DNA of 64,000 nucleotides, from the IMG/VR virus record IMGVR_UViG_3300043399_000272, positions 62,001-126,000 of that record; one strand, 5' to 3'. The translations under genes were made by a program, and so were the position numbers. The DNA comes from a virus. Shown in pieces: positions 6,942 through 64,000 of this stretch. Numbering within the stretch: position 1 is the stretch's first letter; each line of letters starts with the position of its first letter. Below the pieces are notes generated by a model. The model ran no database searches. It was given only the letters and a program-made list of their open reading frames with translations, and was not told where the DNA came from.

Positions 6942-6943
6942 AC

Positions 6944-6976
6944 ATAAAGGTCTCTAAACGAGGCCTTTATTTTTTC
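6944..6976 (+). terminator. Rho-independent terminator of the glycosyl/sulfotransferase operon
   Basis: An 11-bp stem, with one G-T pair, joins 6944-6954 to 6960-6970 around the loop TAAAC. It is followed directly by a run of six T. It begins a few bases after the sulfotransferase stop. Confidence 0.85.
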
Positions 6977-7041
6977 CTACCTTTTTTTGTACATTCTTTG
7001 TTTAGGCATAAATTATAATATACATTTTATAAAGGTAAACC

Positions 7042-7266
7042 ATGGAACATCCAATTTTCAACATTCAACTTACACTTGATCAAGTAAACCTAATTCTAGC
7101 TACTGTAGGTAAATTACCATACGAGTCAATTGCCCCATTGATGAATTCTATTCAAGTTCAAGCTAGTACACAAATGCAGCAGTATAATGCTGCCACCGCA
7201 CAACAAGCAGAAGCAGAATCACAAGCATCACAAGCATCAGAAGATACAGGCAATATTATTCAATAA
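7042..7266 (+). CDS. Small conserved phage protein of unknown function
   Basis: The 74-residue protein starts with a compact part containing LTLDQVNLILATVGKLPYE, followed by a Gln/Ala-rich tail of low complexity. Similar short proteins with an LTxxxVNxILxxLGxLPY core are familiar from T4-like marine phages, but no function is known to me. GTAAACC precedes the ATG, with TAAAGG about ten bases upstream as a likely ribosome-binding site. It opens the operon that contains the APS-kinase fusion. The stretch CATAAATTATAATA at 7008-7021 is the likely promoter region but matches no class cleanly. Confidence 0.65.
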   Translation: MEHPIFNIQLTLDQVNLILATVGKLPYESIAPLMNSIQVQASTQMQQYNAATAQQAEAESQASQASEDTGNIIQ

Positions 7267-7275
7267 GGAATAAAG

Positions 7276-8070: not shown

Positions 8071-8291
8071 ATAAGTATCATGTTCGTTTCAATACTAAAC
8101 ACAACGGTAGTGATTTAGTTTGGAGAATTTTTGAAAATGGTGTAGAACATTTAGCAACAGATGTTCGCATCATTGGAGAAACTTACACCGAATGCACACA
8201 CGAACACGGTGAAACCAAATGGAACATAGCCTGCAATGGGCGTATAATTTGGGTTGACAAAGTTGCCGTTATAGTAACTGGGAAAGATTGA
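8067..8291 (+). CDS. Small unknown protein coupled to the APS-kinase fusion
   Basis: The 74-residue protein starts with GTG at 8067, overlapping the stop of the upstream gene as GTGA, and ends in a TGATG junction with the next gene. This arrangement implies translational coupling on both sides. It contains several His and Cys residues (ECTHEHGET, NIACNG) and is beta-rich in appearance, with no membrane segment. I do not recognise the family. Its place between the APS-kinase fusion and the DUF2061 protein suggests a role in the same process. Confidence 0.65.
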   Translation: MNKYHVRFNTKHNGSDLVWRIFENGVEHLATDVRIIGETYTECTHEHGETKWNIACNGRIIWVDKVAVIVTGKD

Positions 8292-8497
8292 TGAAAGAAA
8301 CATCGCTACGTAGCTTAGCGAAAACTATTAGTTGGCGCTTGACTGGTTCTAGCGCCACTTTTCTTATTAGTTACCTTATATCACACAATCTTAGTGTAGC
8401 AGGTACTATTGCAATAGTACAGTTGACCGCTAATACGATTCTATACTACATTCATGAAAGAGTATGGAATCGTATTAAGTGGGGTTCCTATAGATAG
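8291..8497 (+). CDS. DUF2061 small membrane protein
   Basis: The 68-residue protein matches the DUF2061 pattern: ETSLRSLAKTISWRLTGSSAT at the start, two hydrophobic helices (ATFLISYLI and TIAIVQLTANTILYYI), and the ending HERVWNRIKWG. It should sit in the inner membrane. From memory, bacterial DUF2061 genes often lie next to sulfate-activation genes such as cysC and cysN, which fits the APS-kinase domain two genes upstream; the biochemical role is not established. The ATG at 8291 shares a base with the previous stop; a TTG one codon earlier is possible. The gene ends two bases before the converging nrdB end, with no terminator in between. Confidence 0.8.
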   Translation: MKETSLRSLAKTISWRLTGSSATFLISYLISHNLSVAGTIAIVQLTANTILYYIHERVWNRIKWGSYR

Positions 8498-8499
8498 TA

Positions 8500-14755: not shown

Positions 14756-14873
14756 GTGTTGCCTGTTGTGTTTTTATATTAAATTGTACTGCTTTAAAAA
14801 ATGTTTTAGATTATTACTTATCACGGATCGGACTAGTAATTCAATATATATTTTACGCTGTAGGTATGACTAA

Positions 14874-14890
14874 TAGTATATCATATACTA
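14874..14890. promoter_or_regulatory. Operator-like palindrome upstream of nrdA
   Basis: Perfect 8-bp arms (TAGTATAT and ATATACTA) flank a single central C, about 120 bases before the nrdA start. The symmetry suits a dimeric DNA-binding protein. Similar AT-rich palindromes can arise by chance in such DNA, so function is a guess. Confidence 0.3.
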
Positions 14891-14969
14891 CTCTAGGTAA
14901 CAATAGTAGTTAGAACTGTTTGGATAATCAGACATTGACTAGCTATTAGTTTGGGTAGTCAAATGTAGG

Positions 14970-14995
14970 AAAGGTTACAAAATTTTGTAACCTTT
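14970..14995 (-). terminator. Terminator-like hairpin between the fibre cluster and nrdA
   Basis: A self-complementary 26-base stretch (AAAGGTTACA arms around AAATTT) lies 42 bases after the S74 fibre gene on the minus strand. T runs on both sides allow termination in either direction; the plus-strand side is the more T-rich. Its place suggests it ends the fibre transcript. Confidence 0.6.
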
Positions 14996-15037
14996 TTATG
15001 GTATAATATGAATAGTTCATATTATACTTATCAACAA

Positions 15038-34596: not shown

Positions 34597-37380
34597 TTAA
34601 TTTGTACGCAGTGCAACAAGCATTTCTTCTTGCAGCAACCTAGACTTATACAACTCATTTAGCATCAATCGGCTGTTATCGTCGGTCATAGAGATTAAGT
34701 CAGCTAGTAATTTACCAGCATTTGGTTGCGAACTTAACGGGTTTATAGATGAAATGGGCTGTTTAGAAACTTCATTTCTATAGTTAGTTAAGCTGTTTGC
34801 TGCATCTGATAACAATGCTTGATATGACGCAGCACTTGTAGCTACTTCGTTTTTATGAAGCATTACAGGGTATCCTGAATTAGGACCACTGAATACTCCA
34901 CCGTATCTTGCTTCTTCAAAATGCACAGGGTCTCTAGGTACTGTTTGCTTCAAGCCCTGTGCGTTAAACGCCGTTACTAATTTTGGATCAGTATAGTTTT
35001 GGACATCGATTGCTTTGCCCATTTCATGCTTACTGGAACCAGGAGGAGCTACAGGCATTCCTGTTTTGCCTCTAGCTAAGTAGTCAGCATAAAGTTGTCT
35101 TTGTTTTTCACTATCCCTAAAAGAACTGTTAACTTGTACTTTCTTACCAGTTAATGCGAAATAATCAGTAGCAGCAGAAACAACTTTCTCCTTAAAAGCA
35201 GGATTTAAGTTATCAAAATTAGTTCTTGATCCTGAAGCTCCACCAAAGGATAAAATCTTATCTACTTGTCCAGGTGCTGCGGGCGCAGCTGGGGCTTCAA
35301 CTGAAGGGACTGAAGGTCTTTTACCTCCTACTGCTTTACTGAATTCATCTACTGCCTTTTTAAATGTGTCAGTTGCCCCTTTGTGAATATTAGTCGAAAT
35401 GTTAAATGCTTTAACAACACCATCCATTAACATTGCGGCACCTTGCTGCTTTCGACCAGCATCGATCATATTTTCAGTGTCTTTGTCTCCGCGTTGTGCC
35501 ATTTCAGCTAGTCTACGAGCGACTGCTTGTTGTAGGTCTAAACCTTCAACTAAATTTGAATTTAATTTTTGTTGGGTGTCTAACAATCCTGCAAACTTAC
35601 CTGGTATAATACCCTGAACAGCTTCTGAACCACCAAATCTAACAGTAGGTGCTACTCTTAATAACGCCTCCCTCAAATCAACTGCTATGCTTCCTAATAA
35701 TTGATTAGCTTTTTGACCACTTTCTAATCCTTGTATAAGTCTAGGCATTGACTGCAATACTGCTGCGGCTTCTGCTGATGCTGGACCTCCAGCACCGTAT
35801 TGTGCAATACCTTTAGCTAATTGAGACTGACCCATAGCTTGCATACTAACCGCAGCTTCATAGTATTGTCTTAATCTTTCTAATTCAGCTTGCGGTGCTC
35901 CTCTAGCTTCTGCTTCTAAAATAGATGCTCTTAGCTCGTCTACAGCCATTATAGCTTCACGTGCTTCTTCTTGTTCTTTTCTAGTAGCACCAGTTAATTC
36001 TTGAAGTAGAACCAACTCTTTGATATATGCTTCTGACCCTTTAATTAACTGACTTTCAGTTTTGAGCCTTGACATCCCAAGTCTAGTTTCTTGGGCCATG
36101 TATTTTAAGGTAAGTTCTCGTTGCTCGTTTGCAACAATACCCAATGCTTCTAATTCTTTTCCGGCGCCGCTTTTGAATAGTTCTCCAGCAACTCGAATAT
36201 ACTGTCTAGCTCCTTCGCTAGTTGTAGCCCCAAAATACTTTAAATCTTTTGCACTTTGGGCTAGAATTCTATTGAATTCTTCAATCTCAGCTACAGTCAT
36301 CCCCAATGTCTGCATCTGTTCAAAAACATCAGACATGCCACCGGATAACAAAATACCCGAACGGGATAGATCGTTGAATGACTTAAATAATTTGTCTGAC
36401 TGTATAGCAGCTACTTCGTTTGCTTCACCTGCTTTCTTTATAGCAGTACCACCGATTGCAAGTGCGGCCCCAAATCCCCTTAGTACCCAACGTAATGCGC
36501 CCATTCCAGGTATTAACATCATTGCAATACCTATTGCTTGGGTTGCTGTTCCCAATTCATCAGTAAACTCTTTGACTGCTCTAGCAGAAACAGCGGCACC
36601 CCTAGCACCGTTGTATACTTCTTTAGTCATCTTAGCAGTTGCATTGTATAATCCTGTACCAACAGCAGTTAGTAGAATCCAACCTGCGCTAAGTGTTGCG
36701 CTCTTTCCAATTAAATCAAAGACTTTATTGTTTAAATCTGCTAGGAATGAACCACCTGTTTTATATTTGTCAGTAAGTTCTTTGAGTACGTTCCCGCTTT
36801 CTTCTTTCATTCGGTCACGTAAATCTTCTTTTTTATCTTCAACTGCTTTGCGCTTGTTTTCTTTCTCGATAAGTTTTAAATTTTCTTTTTGCTCTTTTGA
36901 TAAGATATTAACAATGTTTCCATAAGTGTCAATTTTCTTACCTAAGGATTGAAGTCTTATTTCATATTCACTCTGCTTAAAAGTACCACCAGCTTCGCCG
37001 GTTCCGGCTACTTTTACTTTTGTTAACTTGCTTAATGTTTTACCTAACTCGTTGAATTGAGTTATCAATCCCTGAGTTGCTTTTGACAGACTCTTAAAGT
37101 CTTTACCTAATGACTTGCTAGAATCAGATACGGCTCCAAACCCTCGGGTTGCATTATCGCTAGTTTTCTTAGCAGCAGAAGTAGTGGTATTGAGTTCAGT
37201 TGTTTTCTTTAACAACTTATCCAATTCTTTGTTCAACTTAGCTACAGTTGACTTTGTAGTATCAGTAGTAGTATTGAATTTACCAAACCCAGAATCCAAT
37301 CCAGTGGTAGAGTCTGTTAATTCTCGGATACTCTCCGACAATCTTCTAATTTCTTCTGGGTCTATATTATTGTCAGCCAT
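34597..37380 (-). CDS. Tape-measure-like protein with an M15 (VanY-type) peptidase domain
   Basis: The 927-residue protein starts with about 220 residues of charged coiled coil, then hydrophobic helices (AGWILLTAVGTGLYNA near 235 and IGIAMMLIPGMGALRWVL near 290), as in tape-measure proteins that span the tail and enter the membrane. Residues about 715-830 are a D-alanyl-D-alanine carboxypeptidase/endopeptidase domain of family M15, with zinc ligands His785 and Asp792 (SSKHEMGKAID) and His820 (DPVHFE). Such a domain would cut peptidoglycan cross-bridges as DNA is injected. T4 gp29 (590 residues) has no such domain. It lies back to back with gp26-like hub genes, which fits a tail-hub role; the name tape measure is inferred. 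Confidence 0.65.
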   Translation of the reverse strand: MADNNIDPEEIRRLSESIRELTDSTTGLDSGFGKFNTTTDTTKSTVAKLNKELDKLLKKTTELNTTTSAAKKTSDNATRGFGAVSDSSKSLGKDFKSLSKATQGLITQFNELGKTLSKLTKVKVAGTGEAGGTFKQSEYEIRLQSLGKKIDTYGNIVNILSKEQKENLKLIEKENKRKAVEDKKEDLRDRMKEESGNVLKELTDKYKTGGSFLADLNNKVFDLIGKSATLSAGWILLTAVGTGLYNATAKMTKEVYNGARGAAVSARAVKEFTDELGTATQAIGIAMMLIPGMGALRWVLRGFGAALAIGGTAIKKAGEANEVAAIQSDKLFKSFNDLSRSGILLSGGMSDVFEQMQTLGMTVAEIEEFNRILAQSAKDLKYFGATTSEGARQYIRVAGELFKSGAGKELEALGIVANEQRELTLKYMAQETRLGMSRLKTESQLIKGSEAYIKELVLLQELTGATRKEQEEAREAIMAVDELRASILEAEARGAPQAELERLRQYYEAAVSMQAMGQSQLAKGIAQYGAGGPASAEAAAVLQSMPRLIQGLESGQKANQLLGSIAVDLREALLRVAPTVRFGGSEAVQGIIPGKFAGLLDTQQKLNSNLVEGLDLQQAVARRLAEMAQRGDKDTENMIDAGRKQQGAAMLMDGVVKAFNISTNIHKGATDTFKKAVDEFSKAVGGKRPSVPSVEAPAAPAAPGQVDKILSFGGASGSRTNFDNLNPAFKEKVVSAATDYFALTGKKVQVNSSFRDSEKQRQLYADYLARGKTGMPVAPPGSSKHEMGKAIDVQNYTDPKLVTAFNAQGLKQTVPRDPVHFEEARYGGVFSGPNSGYPVMLHKNEVATSAASYQALLSDAANSLTNYRNEVSKQPISSINPLSSQPNAGKLLADLISMTDDNSRLMLNELYKSRLLQEEMLVALRTN

Positions 37381-37406: not shown

Positions 37407-37414
37407 TATTTATG
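37407..37414 (-). promoter_or_regulatory. Late promoter (CATAAATA) for the tape-measure-like gene
   Basis: CATAAATA on the minus strand lies 26 bases before the ATG at 37380. It overlaps the start codon of the divergent gp26-like gene, so the two transcripts begin within about 30 bases of each other. Confidence 0.45.
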
Positions 37415-38464
37415 ACCGAAAAAACTGTGTCTACACCAGCCTTCAGAAAACCTGCATTATACTTTAAACTTCCCAGCAACGGTAAATTTTACCCAGAAAA
37501 TAGTTTAAAGTTGCCACCTAACAACGAGTTACCGGTGTATCCCACTACGGGTTTAGATGAAATCACTATAAAAACAGTAGACGCATTGTTTAACGGTTCG
37601 GCAATAGTTGAAGTTATCAGAAGCTGTGTACCCGATATTCCTGATCCTTGGGAAATACCCGTAGTAGATTTAGACCCACTATTGGTTGCAATCAAGTTAG
37701 CATCATTCGGAAACGGCATGGACATTGATTCAACTTGTCCTGAATGCAACGAATCTAGTAAGTACGGGTTAAATTTAACTAACATATTGAATAACTTAAA
37801 ATTAGGTGATTACGACTCTGAATTAGAAGTTGACGGTATCTACGTTAAGTTTCGTCCATTAAAGTACAAAGATTACAACAGATTCAATATCCAAGAGTTT
37901 GAGTTTCAAAAGATTATCAATTCAATTGATATGATAAAAGATGAAAAACTAAAAGAAAAGAAGAATATAGATGCCATCATGGCTTCGCTTGAGATGCACA
38001 TAGAACGCATAACTGCAAGTATAGAATACATTAAAACTTCGGATAACTTAGTTAACAACGCAGACTTTATAAGAGAGTTCCTAGAAAACTGTAATGTTGA
38101 TTATTACCGAAAAATCAGAGAGCGTTATACAACTCTTAAAGAGTCTACACAAACCAAACCACTGGTTATAAAATGCACTCACTGTTCACATGAGTATGAG
38201 CAACTACTAATGCTAAACTATTGCGAATATTTTCGGGTTAGACTATTGTATATGCAACCGGAAGAAATTCAAGAATGGTTAACTAGTATGGAAAAGGATG
38301 CATTAGAAATTAAGAATAGTGCATTGAAAATGTCCTGGTATATGCGTGGAGGTATATCATTCAATGAAATACTGCATTTGTCAGACAGAGAACGAGAAAC
38401 GATTAACGAAATCATTAAAGAAAACTTAGAGACAACTAAAAAGACGCAGTTACCATTCTTCTAA
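37412..38464 (+). CDS. Baseplate hub protein, gp26-like, with C-terminal extension
   Basis: The 350-residue protein starts with FRKPALYFKLPSNGKFYP, a pattern of the T4 gp26-type hub proteins. Two CxxC pairs, CPECN (near 109) and CTHCSHEY (near 255), can form a zinc ribbon. It is clearly related to the next gene over about 270 residues (shared PVYPTTGLDEI-, VRSCxPDI- and REFLENCxxD motifs). About 80 residues follow that the paralogue lacks; they end SWYMRGGISFNEILHLSDRE and may correspond to a short hub-assembly protein of the gp51 type, a tentative match. The gene lies divergent from the tape-measure-like gene. Confidence 0.65.
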   Translation: MTEKTVSTPAFRKPALYFKLPSNGKFYPENSLKLPPNNELPVYPTTGLDEITIKTVDALFNGSAIVEVIRSCVPDIPDPWEIPVVDLDPLLVAIKLASFGNGMDIDSTCPECNESSKYGLNLTNILNNLKLGDYDSELEVDGIYVKFRPLKYKDYNRFNIQEFEFQKIINSIDMIKDEKLKEKKNIDAIMASLEMHIERITASIEYIKTSDNLVNNADFIREFLENCNVDYYRKIRERYTTLKESTQTKPLVIKCTHCSHEYEQLLMLNYCEYFRVRLLYMQPEEIQEWLTSMEKDALEIKNSALKMSWYMRGGISFNEILHLSDRERETINEIIKENLETTKKTQLPFF

Positions 38465-38488
38465 AAAGTACAACTCGTTTTTTTGGTC

Positions 38489-38496
38489 TATAAATA
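38489..38496 (+). promoter_or_regulatory. Late promoter, perfect TATAAATA
   Basis: TATAAATA matches the T4 late consensus exactly and lies 20 bases before the ATG of the second gp26-like gene. A GGAG ribosome-binding site lies between them. Confidence 0.65.
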
Positions 38497-38515
38497 CACG
38501 AATATTGGAGATATC

Positions 38516-39334
38516 ATGTCAAACAACCCATTGAAAAATTATTTTCGCAAGCCTGCATTAACAATAAAACTACCTAGCGGTGGTCAAGGTTACAAAGAAG
38601 GTGCATTACAATTGCCTGAATCAGGTGAGTTGTCTATATACCCAATGACGGCAATGGATGAGATCAATGTAAAGACTCCTGAAAATCTAACGAACGGAAA
38701 TGCAGTTGTTGGTTTAGTTCGTAGTTGTATCCCTGATATCAAAGACCCTTGGGAAATTTTAAGTACTGATTTAGATACCCTATTATTGGGTATTAGAATT
38801 GCTACTACTGGTAAGATGCTAAAAGTCGAAACCGAATGCCCAAACTGTAGCGCAGAAAACAAACATGATATTAACGTATATGATATGCTTGCAGCTATTG
38901 GTAATAGCGGCTACGACCAATTGTTATCTTTGAATGGATTGTCAATCAAGTTCAAACCACTGAACTATAGACAAATCATGAAGGCAAATGAATCCCAAAC
39001 ACAGATTCAACGAAAGATTGATTCAATTGATGAACAAACATCAGAAGAAGCAAAACTTAAAATTTCAGCAGAAGTTATTAAAGAACTGAACAACATGTCA
39101 TTTGTATTAGTCGGGGAAGCAGTTGAATATATAAAGACCCCTGACAATGTAGTGTTTGAAAAGGAATTTATTCGTGAATTCCTAGAAAATTGCGACAAAG
39201 ATACATTCGATAAAATCAAGCAAACAAATTTGGATTTACGTGCTGCCACCGATATTAAACCAGTGAATCTCACTTGCACATCATGTAATCATGAATATGA
39301 GTTCTCTTTGGATATCAATGTGAACTCAATCTAA
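38516..39334 (+). CDS. Second baseplate hub protein, gp26-like
   Basis: The 272-residue protein is a paralogue of the preceding gene. Shared points are YFRKPALTIKLPSGG at the start, IYPMTAMDEINVKTPE, the CxxC pairs CPNCSAENK and CTSCNHEYEF, and REFLENCDKD. T4 gp26 has 208 residues and lies in the hub below the tail tube. The ATG at 38516 has a GGAG ribosome-binding site 6 bases upstream and a perfect late promoter, so an upstream TTG at 38483 is not the start. Tandem copies may form a heteromer or fill two hub positions. Confidence 0.7.
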   Translation: MSNNPLKNYFRKPALTIKLPSGGQGYKEGALQLPESGELSIYPMTAMDEINVKTPENLTNGNAVVGLVRSCIPDIKDPWEILSTDLDTLLLGIRIATTGKMLKVETECPNCSAENKHDINVYDMLAAIGNSGYDQLLSLNGLSIKFKPLNYRQIMKANESQTQIQRKIDSIDEQTSEEAKLKISAEVIKELNNMSFVLVGEAVEYIKTPDNVVFEKEFIREFLENCDKDTFDKIKQTNLDLRAATDIKPVNLTCTSCNHEYEFSLDINVNSI

Positions 39335-39886
39335 GTCCATAGTTACTCATTTATCCTAAACTACACTATCTTACTTTTATCTTTAGTAGATGACCTTCGG
39401 TCATCTTACCTTCACAATGTTCACTTCGTTCACATTGCTTGGTATACTGATTTATTCTAATTAATTCTTTTTGATTCTAATACTAATCTTTATTAGGGGG
39501 ATATATACTGCCGCTTTGAAGCCATGGTAGTGCTATTTTAGCACTACCAATGGATAAACTATGCCATGCCCGTCATCCTTTGCCGTCTGTTCCCCAGCTA
39601 GACGCCCTGTACTGACTCTAGCTGCGATCGGTTGCCCTGTAAATTGTTATGGGACTGTAGTGAGCCTATTGTACTTAGAAACATTCATACAACGACTCGG
39701 CAACGCATGTTACATATCCGCAAGACAGAATTAGATATGTACTCATTGAGGGTTCCCTAATAGATTGCCCTCTCGATCTCCCAAGCAGTATCACTACTAC
39801 TTGCATACTCCAGATCCATCAGCTATCTTTCAAGCATCTTCAAGGAGGTCCTACAAACTAGGACGACTAATTTTTATGTTAATAAA
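39335..39886. ncRNA. Hairpin-rich non-coding gap, possible structured RNA
   Basis: This 552-base gap lies between two converging genes and has no useful open frame. The right part (about 39490-39870) is visibly richer in GC than its surroundings. I can pair several local helices: 39388-39395 with 39399-39406; 39522-39535 with 39539-39553 (one bulge); 39595-39602 with 39617-39624; 39711-39718 with 39734-39741; and 39848-39853 with 39859-39864, followed by a T-rich stretch. A longer-range GTTGCC/GGCAAC pair joins 39631-39636 to 39699-39704. It does not resemble a tRNA, tmRNA or RNase P RNA to my eye. The orientation is unknown; the end hairpin with T run favours plus. It could instead simply be two facing terminators plus relict DNA. 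Confidence 0.35.
39522..39553. other. Strong hairpin in the 39.5-kb gap
   Basis: Arms of 14 bp with one bulged A enclose the loop TTT; the inner ten pairs (GGTAGTGCTA with TAGCACTACC) are perfect. No T run follows on either side, so it is not a typical terminator. It may be the first helix of the proposed RNA. Confidence 0.6.
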
Positions 39887-40438
39887 TTAAGTTTGTGATT
39901 TTAAATTTGACGTGGTGTCTGTTGTTGAACCTGAATATAATTTTACTAAGTCTTTGTTATGTTTGAAAAAGCTGTCAAACTCTGTGATCAACCAATCACC
40001 GTATGTTTTACTAGAATAAAAAGTATAACTGTCTATTCTCCAAGTTAGTTTTGGTTGAACTGCAACGAATTGTCCGATACGATTAAACTTCATAAAAAGA
40101 ATGTTTAAATCACCTTCGTCCTCAACGTCTAAAAGTTGATCCAGCCACGAATCAAGTTGTTTGCAGCTTCCGGTAAGCAGTAAGTGAAACGGGAAGTCTT
40201 TATAGAATTTGCATTCTGCATTCATTTTACTGAAGGAGTGCCCCGGAACAATGTCGCCCTTAAAAGAACGAATTTGTCCCTCATGAAGCACTTCTTTACG
40301 GACTTGATTCTTGCCACCTACATATGCGCCGGATCCAGGTGCACGAATGAATGATTCATTGTACAACTCTGATAAAAATTTAGCGACTGTGCGCTCGTAT
40401 CCTGATCCTTTTGCTTTTTGCGGTGATGGCATATTCAT
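39887..40438 (-). CDS. PD-(D/E)XK nuclease-like protein
   Basis: The 183-residue protein has the arrangement of a small PD-(D/E)XK nuclease: Glu15 in KGSGYERTVAKFL, Asp62 in KGDIVP, and Glu75/Lys77 in ECK. Archaeal-type Holliday-junction resolvases have the same order of motifs at similar spacing, so a resolvase role in phage recombination is plausible. The C-terminal 30 residues look disordered. It follows the nucleotidase gene in the operon gp55-gp47-gp46. ATG at 40438 is taken as start; a second Met two residues later is possible. Confidence 0.65.
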   Translation of the reverse strand: MNMPSPQKAKGSGYERTVAKFLSELYNESFIRAPGSGAYVGGKNQVRKEVLHEGQIRSFKGDIVPGHSFSKMNAECKFYKDFPFHLLLTGSCKQLDSWLDQLLDVEDEGDLNILFMKFNRIGQFVAVQPKLTWRIDSYTFYSSKTYGDWLITEFDSFFKHNKDLVKLYSGSTTDTTSNLKSQT

Positions 40439-61500: not shown

Positions 61501-64000
61501 AGGTTATGTGAACCTAAACGATATTACTCAATATGGATACAATGTAAGTAATTTACCAGATGCATTAATTAACGAAGTATATAGAAATGATTACTTGTAT
61601 GTTGCCGACAAAGGCAGTACCTGGCAAGTCTATACTCCGGTATCAACTAACGCACAAGTAATCAGTGTAGTTAATAATTTGAATGGCACTGTTACTGTTG
61701 AGTTTGATAAAAACCATAACTTATACAAAAATCAAGTTATGGGTATACTAGGATTCGATAGTCGAATTGATGGATATCATACTGTTATAGATGTAATTGG
61801 TTTACAGTCATTGACTGTTTCATTGACACTTGATCCGGGCGTTACTGTTATAAACGGTGCAGGTATAAGTTTCTTGTTACAAAGTCAGAGAGTTGTTACA
61901 GCTAGAGATATTCCTAGTCTACCGCTTTTAAATTCAGAGTATTCTACAAATAAAGTATGGGTAGATAGTAACGTTGACGGTAATTGGACAGTTTATGAAA
62001 AAACTAACAATTACGCAAATGTGCCATTTGCTAAATCAGGAGGAATGATAACAGAAACATTTGGAACAAGTGTTGCGTATATTCCTGACTTTGGATATCT
62101 AGTAGGTGATAGTGCTGCTGGAAAAGTTTATGTGTTTGTACAGGCTGATAACGGAAGTTTCTTCTTAAAAGATACTATGTCATATCCTGGTACTACATTT
62201 GGCACAGTAATTGCATACAGTGAACAATTGGTTGTAATTACTGCACCGGGTCCAGCCCTAGGGATCAGTCAAATTTATATTTACAGAATACCAACTACCA
62301 ACAGTATCAATGGTTTGACACTACAACAAGTAATTACATTTGGTGGCACTATAGGTAAGAGTGTAACTATCTCACAAGATAGTAACTTATTGTATTTAGG
62401 AAGTGAAGATAACAACCTAGTTGTAATATTCCAATTAGATCGTGTTCCAACTCACACTGGTTCAGGACTTAGTTTAGCGGCGGCTACTCAGGTCAGAAGC
62501 AAACAGTTTATATGTTCCGGTAATGTAGGTAACTTAATAACTGAAGGACAGCGTGTAAGTTTCTCAACAGCTTATACTAATTTAGGAGTAACAACTTATT
62601 ACCCTATAACTGAATTCATGAATGAATTTAAAGTCTTGGGTAACCAAACAGGATTATTATCCTATGGTGATCAAGTGACGTTTAATACATCTGGAACCGG
62701 TAGCACAATTGCATACACAATTGGTTCTTTCTATGTTGATGAAGGTCTAACATTAAATATCACCGGCGCTGCAGGCAATGGCACCTTTGCTGCGGTATCT
62801 TATGCAGCACAAGCAGTTGCACCTTTCCAAATAGGAGAGAAAATTATAATCTCCGGTATGACACCGGCAGCGTACAATGGAACTCATACCGTAGTAGCTT
62901 GTACTACAACTCAAGTCACCTTTGCATCAACTGCGACTGGACCAATGACAGTTGCAGGCACGGTGTCAGCACCTACAATAACTGTATTCAGTACTATAGA
63001 AAACTTTGCTACAGGAACTAATATTAATGTAGGTAACCCAATTTACAAGATTACTTTTAGCCAAGATGATGTGCATACTGTTGTAACGAGCACCTATAAT
63101 TCGTCTACAAATAAAACTACTTTCTTGTTGCAAGATGAAATTAGTTATTCTACTCCATCTGGATCTAATATCTTTATAGTGTCAGATGCATTTAGTATTG
63201 GTGGTATACTATCATCAGTATTAGCCGCAGAAGACGACAAGTATGGTTTTAGCCTAACTACCAATTACGATGGTAGTAAATTGTTTGTTGGAGCACCGTA
63301 CACTGATTTTAGCGAAAGTCTAACAGATACAGGTGTCGTGTTCGCATATGACAGATTGATCATAAATGTAGAAGTACAGTATGATCAAAAAGAAGGTCAA
63401 CCATTCGTTATTCGTCCTCCATTCACACCTACAGACCAAACTAGAGTACTGTTAAACGGTGTATTGTTACAGAGTAATCAATATATTGTTATATTTGGTG
63501 TAATATTTATTGATGATATTGGAATGGTTGCAGGAGATATCTTAACAGTTAACAGCATTAATTTTGTGCTAACATCACAATTGTTCAGCCAAGACAATTT
63601 AAGTGATTTGCGTCAAGGTGAGTTGTTCGGGTACAGTCTTTCTTCTAACAAGTATGGTAGTGAGTTATTAGTGGGTGTACCGTTCGATGTGTCGAATAAT
63701 ACACAAAAAGAGGGTTCTGTAATACGTTTTACAAATGCAGGAAAGCGTTTTGGAAGAATACAAGGTGTAATAGAATGCAACCTATATGAACCGACTTACT
63801 TATTACTAAACGGTCAGATTGTTAATGCATTCTCTGAAACACCATTGCTAGCTACTATAAGTACAGGTGCAACAACATGTACTATTAGTGCATTAGCAGC
63901 CTCATACTTACCTAACTCAGGTGTTATCTCGTTTACGAATACGTTAACTGGTAGCATACAGTCAATTGCTTATACTAGTGTAAACGCTACAACAGGTGTA
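55559..64000 (+). CDS. Giant virion structural protein, open at the right edge
   Basis: The frame starting MVTRVRTIDFLPEVF at 55559 stays open wherever I checked it through to base 64000, so at least 2814 codons are present and the stop lies beyond the window. It begins 16 bases after gp6. The N-terminal half has aromatic-rich structural segments such as HDGSFNKLYGTYE, LLEFEKRVFNN and WGMDLMRLAAL-type motifs (read here as WPFDLMRLAALTNP). Beyond about residue 2150 come repeats like FGTSVAYIPDFGYLVGDS, DKYGFSLTTNYDGSKLFVGAP and FGYSLSSNKYGSELLVGVP, which resemble FG-GAP beta-propeller blades. Giant proteins at this place in marine T4-like phages are virion structural (VrlC-like); a baseplate or receptor-binding role is inferred. 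Confidence 0.75.
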   Translation, partial: MVTRVRTIDFLPEVFKTKSNSQFLKGSLDQLVQQPDFKRIQGYIGSKFGYGINARDKYLVEPTKVRSDYQLEPAVIFKKTNTNTAVDLLTYPGLTDTLTLQGSNVTNDSELFNNEFYSWDSFVNLDTLVNYAQYYWLPNGPDAVQVTNTSFFDRLSLIVTQGSAGYVITSPTTVIEGVNPTLTLIRGGTYTFAVNQTDDFWIQSEPGTSGKNITRSNFSTREVLGVENNGISEGTITFTVPMSTAQDTWLFPNSIDIDLATTLKWEELQGLPITSNTKIDGLAVQSLIGKTVIFYGTTPGTLGAYNDFYGDSYDDDDYSETTYTDITKHYYTITAAGNVDSPVLNLTETGLIPDNTSLNILYGTEYSGRQFVKNSYAEIVLIPYLTAPLDVLWYQSSNNPNLVGRIELVDPITLPIINILDILGKKTYVSPNNVTFTNGLKVTFVGNIVPVEYATGSYYVEGVGSAIELIPTEFFDNPPITEATTPDYITIARNSFDKNEWSRSNRWFHIDVLNATIAYNVTSPIALEALGNVNNRAKRPIIEFYPNLKLYNSGTLNRENVKYINFTVTDAFTQVAGTTSFYPDGSTALVSGDTIIFAGDNSVDVRNKIYVAQVSTVSPSTPPVITLSESPNGQVQFDQQVTVTSGTTYKQKSFYFDGLNWKQSQTKERKNQPPLFDVFDKNNNSFGDTEYYPSTTFNGCTLFEYATGSGADDAVLGFPIKYTSGNQFGDIVFNASLNTQTFEYLDNFTDTTLNVGSGFVFKYETRDKFTRNIGWQTTVDESFQYQVFNKVSTEISNSRFICDVKVNDPQSTAWPTIVVYANNSRLDSSKYTVSTSTNSTTITLVDDIVLGSPVDILIYSDQVSSEGYYQVPFNLDRNPFNGEIEQIPLGDIRGHYKSILNNAPGVTGIAFGANNYRDLGNLIPYGTKIIQNSASIVSSGMFLRNIYNFFDSLAYNSVQYTQFKTLLVDLVVTNDYTSMDSTEFVLDDILEKVASVKSDTNPFFWSDMIPNKDSFSTKSYVFKSSIDNSRFTLSRVYDFTSANYYGVLVYLTRRVNGLMQQTQLLKDIDYTISSTENILTVTKDLQSGDLITIKEYDQTYGSYVPNTPTKLGLYPKYIPEVIYDDSYRYPTYFIQGHDGSFNKLYGTYENGVLNDLRDRVLLEFEKRVFNNLKTSNAIPLTYDEIVPGQFRNVGYTLEEYNTMYSSMFLNWAGANRIDYQEHDYQSTNPYTFNYRGASYKFNSKKIAQGSWRGIYLWLYDTIYPDTKPWEMLGFTIKPEWWDTRYGVAPYTSGNTFMWQDIENGYVWNNGNPYINTQRTRPGLLSILPVDSNGDLKSPFDFLIGSYDADNFGNPWILGDDGPAEYSYLKSSTWPFDLMRLAALTNPAKFFALGIDVDKYKYDSEFGQYLFNGRYRDYLSLTSIYGNGVAAHSYMNWFIDYVNQYEVNGTDYVTNLIGNLDVRLTYRLAGFSDKDLLDFFVEKGSTLSSNNSLLIPEDNYSILLYDNQPTDTIIYSSIIVQKTTNGYRVYGNSQTKTYFKSFIPSSNGMTTEFTVNNNTIYVPKNYVDKSVIIPYGHEFSNVTELATFIRGYGLYLASQGLKFTDIENGIELSWDQMIYETYYWTLTGWEVGSTINVNPSARNIIIDKESHVVQPLTIAKDNFVLNQNLLPINLNDLYVYRDGTYFNVKSLNQGDSLSFITANTSTIEHVVVFDNETIFNDVIYNLTTGLRQQRMYVKGSKTAEWNGTVNAAGFIINQDNIQEWQQNTKYTKGTIVKFKNDYYIANEVVIIPSPTFDYTKWLKTSYDMIQKGLLPNPSTRAYESTLYYDTTNPNLESDADLLAFSLIGFRPRQYFAQANLDDATQVNLYKNMIEVKGTVSGVTQLEGINLQENTLNYDVHENWAIKVTEFGGILNQNFIEITLDETALTGNPSIASIVDRNTVEGTQQAIPLYNIKNYGRPVTSVDILPTIPQGRNTRLPSAGYVNLNDITQYGYNVSNLPDALINEVYRNDYLYVADKGSTWQVYTPVSTNAQVISVVNNLNGTVTVEFDKNHNLYKNQVMGILGFDSRIDGYHTVIDVIGLQSLTVSLTLDPGVTVINGAGISFLLQSQRVVTARDIPSLPLLNSEYSTNKVWVDSNVDGNWTVYEKTNNYANVPFAKSGGMITETFGTSVAYIPDFGYLVGDSAAGKVYVFVQADNGSFFLKDTMSYPGTTFGTVIAYSEQLVVITAPGPALGISQIYIYRIPTTNSINGLTLQQVITFGGTIGKSVTISQDSNLLYLGSEDNNLVVIFQLDRVPTHTGSGLSLAAATQVRSKQFICSGNVGNLITEGQRVSFSTAYTNLGVTTYYPITEFMNEFKVLGNQTGLLSYGDQVTFNTSGTGSTIAYTIGSFYVDEGLTLNITGAAGNGTFAAVSYAAQAVAPFQIGEKIIISGMTPAAYNGTHTVVACTTTQVTFASTATGPMTVAGTVSAPTITVFSTIENFATGTNINVGNPIYKITFSQDDVHTVVTSTYNSSTNKTTFLLQDEISYSTPSGSNIFIVSDAFSIGGILSSVLAAEDDKYGFSLTTNYDGSKLFVGAPYTDFSESLTDTGVVFAYDRLIINVEVQYDQKEGQPFVIRPPFTPTDQTRVLLNGVLLQSNQYIVIFGVIFIDDIGMVAGDILTVNSINFVLTSQLFSQDNLSDLRQGELFGYSLSSNKYGSELLVGVPFDVSNNTQKEGSVIRFTNAGKRFGRIQGVIECNLYEPTYLLLNGQIVNAFSETPLLATISTGATTCTISALAASYLPNSGVISFTNTLTGSIQSIAYTSVNATTGV

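Follow-up and report, generated by a model that had tools for sequence, protein, structure and literature searches.

A conserved, pseudoknotted RNA predicted between the resolvase and baseplate genes of jumbo phages

Results

The stretch of viral DNA analysed here (the window; 64,000 nucleotides, positions 62,001 to 126,000 of IMG/VR record IMGVR_UViG_3300043399_000272) holds a gap of exactly 552 nt (39335-39886), bounded by the stop codons of a baseplate gene and a resolvase gene (Table 1), within which the longest open reading frame (ORF) spans 57 aa. No other gap on a simple ORF map of the window is as large (those next in size measure 429, 334, 282, 244 and 120 nt; median 14 nt), and the 552 frame-free bases that an earlier note on this DNA had singled out are indeed an outlier. 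Four other gaps, of 244-429 nt and likewise lacking a long ORF, lie at window positions 8071-8499, 6942-7275, 14756-15037 and 2125-2368. Within the 552-nt gap, the GC content rises from 31% on the left (39335-39500) to 45% on the right (39501-39871), against a window mean of 37%, which agrees with the GC-richer right part described earlier. The gap folds more stably than its dinucleotide shuffles on both strands (z -3.6 plus, -4.5 minus). The resolvase gene is situated directly upstream of the RNA described below, on the same (minus) strand, and the baseplate gene is one of two tandem T4-type hub paralogues (37412-38464 and 38483-39334, both plus; each PF12322 and PHROG 150). Nearby, 34597-37380 (minus) encodes a protein of 927 aa that has a VanY-type peptidase domain (PF02557) close to the C terminus and is plausibly a cell-wall enzyme associated with the tail. 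The phages that host the RNA are myoviruses and encode T4-type baseplate proteins, SbcCD-like recombination proteins and the PF24608 resolvase; ARAGORN found no tRNA and no tmRNA in the window.

Table 1. Genes, RNA elements and hairpins at the locus (window positions).
Feature	Position	Strand	Evidence or remarks
T4-type baseplate hub gene, convergent with the RNA	38483-39334	+	PF12322, E 1.1e-18; PHROG 150
Two short hairpins, UUCG/GAA-type loops	39388-39406 and 39416-39436		Also seen in the inspected relatives, downstream of the RNA
Conserved structured RNA, about 369 nt	39503-39871	-	Profile match, covariation, G-U/A-C count; 5' end near 39871, 3' end near 39503
P9 hairpin UGGUAGUGC/GCACUACCA, then conserved motif AUGGCUUC	39518-39549 (P9 39549-39525)	-	99.5% of cells paired
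Pseudoknot 1	39583-39728	-	P6a loop CUGUCU 39728-39723 with AGACGG 39588-39583
Pseudoknot 2	39591-39654	-	UCCC 39654-39651 with GGGA 39594-39591
P8 hairpin	39595-39624	-	Double changes in 11/11 pairs; 89% of cells paired
P4	39626-39778	-	39778-39774 with 39630-39626; 98.7% of cells paired, 3 doubly changed pairs
P7	39631-39704	-	GUUGC 39704-39700 with GCAAC 39635-39631; 100% of cells paired, 2 covarying pairs
P7a, carried by P7	within 39631-39704	-	Weaker, 70% of cells paired
P6/P6a hairpin arm	39707-39746	-	Double changes in 10/11 pairs; 98.8% of cells paired
P5/P5a hairpin arm of the junction	39748-39772	-	100% of cells paired; double changes in 6/8 pairs
P3, variable hairpin	39782-39803	-	Covarying but gappy; outer part 79% of cells paired
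P2 enclosing P2a	39808-39847	-	CUCC 39847-39844 with GGAG 39811-39808; nearly invariant in the near clade
P1, 5' hairpin GUCCUA/UAGGAC	39848-39864	-	5/6 pairs changed on both sides; 93% of cells paired
PD-(D/E)XK resolvase gene	39887-40438	-	PF24608, E 9.7e-23; PHROG 244 RusA-like Holliday junction resolvase, E 3.3e-18

Relatives of the neighbouring resolvase were found at 80 IMG/VR loci. In a nucleotide search with the minus strand of the gap, nearly all of these loci gave a match immediately behind the resolvase gene (identity about 67-77%), and a profile built from these matches detected a copy in 80 of 80; the same profile matches the whole core of the window RNA. Motif scans that were independent of the resolvase added contigs of up to 525 kb, with the RNA in the same place. 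The 221 fetched IMG/VR loci that carry the RNA never have two copies, and it is present once in four records of 352-525 kb. Wherever the sequence suffices, the resolvase gene lies upstream on the strand of the RNA, which in the near clade begins about 10-40 nt past the resolvase stop codon, and the convergent baseplate gene follows in 189/189 loci with both neighbours visible at normal distance. A larger spacing between RNA and baseplate gene was seen in three cases, for example 1,274 nt in L045. The set comprises 126 distinct full-length sequences, with a mean identity of 74% and a lowest value of about 56% among sampled pairs. One locus, L247, has a gap of 432 nt in the same place that gave no match to the RNA model. 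A nucleotide search of 50,697 sequenced phages returned no match, nor did a search of GTDB genomes for the exact 3' motif, which diverged copies could escape.

Covariation was scored with the APC-corrected G statistic on the 126 distinct full-length sequences, and the null came from alignments simulated on the tree, in which each branch received as many changes as had been observed. Twenty-six column pairs scored above the entire phylogenetic null. Two of these are register artefacts and one is an identity-type pair; the others are of the Watson-Crick or wobble kind, and helices P1-P9 as well as two pseudoknots were drawn from the significant pairs. Pair statistics were then taken from an alignment of 46 members with mutual identity below 86%. 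Here, 93.9% of the cells of the 87-pair model are standard pairs, a percentage that is favoured by construction, the structure having been derived from the same sequences. This derivation does not account for the double changes or for the slid controls: changes on both sides were found in 62 of the 87 pairs, and the model contains 596 double-change cells, as opposed to 175 +/- 13 in shuffled alignments and 69-116 when the partners were slid by 1-3 columns.

Read on the resolvase strand, the helices contain 427 G-U cells and 53 A-C cells. A plus-strand RNA would give the reverse, so the RNA lies on the minus strand and the opposite orientation, which the earlier description had implied, is ruled out. 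The lengths of the RNA are evenly distributed over the three remainders modulo 3, which indicates that it is non-coding. The locus thereby combines what is expected of a structured noncoding RNA, namely covariation above the phylogenetic null and a strand-specific excess of G-U. On this comparative evidence, it is almost certain that 39503-39871 encodes a real structured RNA on the minus strand. Homologous gaps carry massive compensatory change, which supports the earlier suggestion of a new phage RNA in the gap; the suggestion holds for this segment and not for the left third of the gap, which is outside the conserved core. A covariance model of the core finds the window RNA with an E-value of 1.6e-33, the window sequence itself being among the sources of the model.

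In the comparative model, P4 closes a four-way junction formed by P4, P5, P6 and P7. A possible long-range helix noticed earlier (39631-39636 with 39699-39704) proves to be real and corresponds to the covariation-supported P7, while the hairpin that had been described as terminal, before a T-rich stretch, is real as well (P1) and marks the 5' end of the RNA instead, since the RNA is on the minus strand. The loop of P6a carries the 5' strand of pseudoknot 1, in which 5/6 pairs show double changes, 97.8% of cells are paired and two column pairs are significant; the respective values for pseudoknot 2 are 4/4 pairs, 95.9% and one column pair. The two pseudoknots lock P8 back onto P6a and P7a, giving a compact fold whose pseudoknotted core holds many invariant unpaired bases. 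P9 shows little covariation because it is nearly invariant. Near the 3' end, columns 295 and 352 of the 126-sequence alignment covary as identical bases (G:G 88, U:U 33, C:C 3), perhaps as a non-canonical tertiary pair or through a shared partner.

For remote relatives, two covariance models, R1 for the core and R2 for the 5' domain, were searched in phages whose resolvase is about 50% identical. R2 matches L243/L284, L285, L286, L287 and L331 with E-values of 1e-8 to 0.007 and, more weakly, L303, L304, L307, L309 and L361. Independently, R1 matches L287 (8e-34), L333 and L331, correctly ordered downstream of the R2 matches. The CUCC/GGAG pairing of P2 is replaced in remote relatives by CCCA/UGGG and CACC/GGUG, that is, with compensation. 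The regions of pseudoknot 1 can pair over 15 bp in L331 and L303, a length reached by 0/500 shuffles; shorter candidates in L284, L285, L319 and L333, which 13-32% of shuffles matched, are suggestive only, and the same blunt shuffle test did not detect pseudoknot 1 in L008, L286 and L336. In the remote relative L309, too, a hairpin precedes the motif AUGGCUUC. Most phages of the wider set have a gap of at least 400 nt at this place, and the length of the P1/P2 linker shifts their alignment. At L304, L307, L309 and L361, the 5' domain is found after the baseplate gene and upstream of the resolvase gene, on the strand of the latter; these are modest matches (E-values 0.007-0.03) at four closely related loci of one clade. 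The order suggests that the RNA is a gene of its own and not simply the 3' UTR of the resolvase mRNA.

The host phages of the window are remotely related to Pseudomonas phage PA5oct and Sinorhizobium phage Phosso, and neither the profile nor either RNA model found a copy in these two phages or in Salicola phage SCTP-2. Between their baseplate and resolvase genes, PA5oct (L113:3479-4991) and Phosso (L115:3990-5003) have 1.5 kb and 1.0 kb, respectively, without large genes, and some hairpins in the PA5oct gap reach a very high local stability (z down to -7.3); both gaps may encode unrecognised RNAs.

Several other signals were considered. The two hairpins at 39388-39436 probably terminate the convergent transcripts. 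A universal promoter motif did not emerge upstream of the RNA, and a promoter of its own, which the earlier note had taken to be necessary, is not forced on a minus-strand RNA, since read-through from the resolvase operon could also produce it. An AT-rich box before P1, TAAAAATT, resembles the T4 late promoter TATAAATA, but TATAAATA itself is present only once in the window and TAAAAATT is absent in remote clades. The 11-mer GACACCACGTC (39909-39919, minus) lies in frame in the variable tail of the resolvase and occurs in 105/113 distinct tails, twice in three of them, with the variants GACACCAAGTC, GACACAAAGTC and GACACAACGTC and almost no synonymous variation. It is unlikely to be a promoter element, its spacing to the RNA varying from 53 to 105 nt. 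The near-invariant CCUCCUUGA was considered as an anti-Shine-Dalgarno mimic, which was discarded as the main role of the RNA because its CUCC pairs with GGAG in P2 and this pairing is compensated in remote relatives. Likewise, a short peptide starting at AUGGCUUC was rejected, its frame being lost beyond about six codons in the sequences inspected.

A search of the whole window with Rfam 15 gave 0 matches, as the earlier reading, which recognised no RNA class, had anticipated, and relaxed Rfam searches of the gap, of seven near-clade loci and of eight remote loci gave only weak matches far below the gathering score. The GOLLD and ROOL covariance models did not match. Group I and group II introns, RNase P and other known ribozymes gave no Rfam match either, and the flanking genes are complete. 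The RNA also does not have the placement of a leader or riboswitch in the near clade, where the next gene is convergent at normally spaced loci. No description of the RNA was found in the open-access literature searched, which included few preprints.

Discussion

The reading that we favour, with a probability of roughly two in three, is that of a stand-alone, trans-acting structured RNA, similar to GOLLD and ROOL in its way of working without belonging to either. Its transcription would take place during infection, driven by a promoter of its own or by read-through out of the resolvase operon, and its fold would keep it stable; it may then have a structural or scaffolding role in trans, as an oligomer or in an RNA-protein complex, and so serve phage replication or host takeover. 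The parts of this proposal differ in strength. It is quite probable that the RNA acts as a separate entity rather than only as a 3' UTR, whereas an ornate-type structural role, proposed by analogy, is tentative and somewhat less likely than its opposite. A cis-regulatory leader is unlikely in the near clade, because no same-strand gene follows. The odds appear about even that the RNA represents an undescribed, widespread class of jumbo-phage RNA that performs a core trans-acting function in infection and is anchored between the recombination and baseplate modules. Such a class would span freshwater and, probably, marine jumbo phages, and the RNA would possibly be bound by, or titrate, junction-specific enzymes.

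The best of the competing explanations, although an unlikely one, is that the element is the 3' UTR of the resolvase mRNA, bound by the resolvase or a nuclease and acting on mRNA stability or in autoregulation in cis. This would account for how closely and constantly the element follows the stop codon of the resolvase gene in the near clade (about 10-40 nt), and the near-invariant, in-frame GACACCACGTC suggests that the resolvase mRNA contains more signals at the nucleotide level. The RNA core is also a four-way junction, like the DNA substrate of the resolvase, a likeness of limited weight; such junctions are widespread among RNAs, whatever their function. However, 370 nt and two pseudoknots far exceed the needs of a stability element, and the 5' domain upstream of the resolvase gene in L304, L307, L309 and L361, though a set of modest matches, speaks against a 3' UTR.

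A catalytic RNA, which would cleave itself or act on other RNAs with the pseudoknotted core as its active site, appears very unlikely. The compact core and its many invariant unpaired bases are what one would expect of it, yet such bases fit protein binding or tertiary contacts equally well, no ribozyme, intron or RNase P family matched, and the intact flanking genes provide no context for splicing. Still less probable is an element that acts as DNA, that is, as an origin, a recombination site or a bidirectional hairpin terminator. In its favour are the recombination genes next to it, the folding of both strands, which is better than that of shuffled sequences, and the need of convergent genes for terminators; but the probable terminators sit separately at 39388-39436, long-range pseudoknots are typical of RNA, and G-U cells eight times as numerous as A-C cells are not expected of single-stranded DNA hairpins. 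Eroded coding sequence, a match to which the earlier note had named as grounds against an RNA, has a negligible chance: the adjoining baseplate paralogue (37412-38464, plus) makes gene decay nearby conceivable, but lengths that are not multiples of three, the lack of a common frame and the strong compensatory pairing already rule it out.

The stand-alone RNA, if that is what it is, appears to be important to these viruses, as it has been kept through deep divergence in large phages, and a core job of theirs seems to be done by an RNA of no described family. Comparative support for its secondary structure and pseudoknots is very strong. The 126 distinct sequences, the covariation model and the compact length of about 370 nt make it readily accessible to structure determination, probing and genetics, and models R1 and R2 permit searching metatranscriptomes for it.

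To the best of our knowledge, phages have few known large structured RNAs, chiefly GOLLD and ROOL. GOLLD is a large, elaborate noncoding RNA of phages and prophages, first found in aquatic metagenomes, and its function is unknown (PMC12286853). The RNA described here is likewise large, structurally elaborate, noncoding and phage-borne, but GOLLD often exceeds 800 nt and is found near tRNA islands, whereas the present RNA has about 370 nt, a different structure and no tRNA in the window. ROOL, also of unknown function, is phage-borne and has multiple pseudoknots and no known partner (PMC12286853), in all of which it resembles the present RNA; it differs in its length of about 660 nt and its frequent location near tRNA islands. 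The OLE RNA, a bacterial RNA (Bacillota) of about 600 nt, works with proteins (PMC12054373). It shares with the present RNA a large, well-conserved and structured nature, and differs from it in being bacterial, in its length of about 600 nt and in having no match here.
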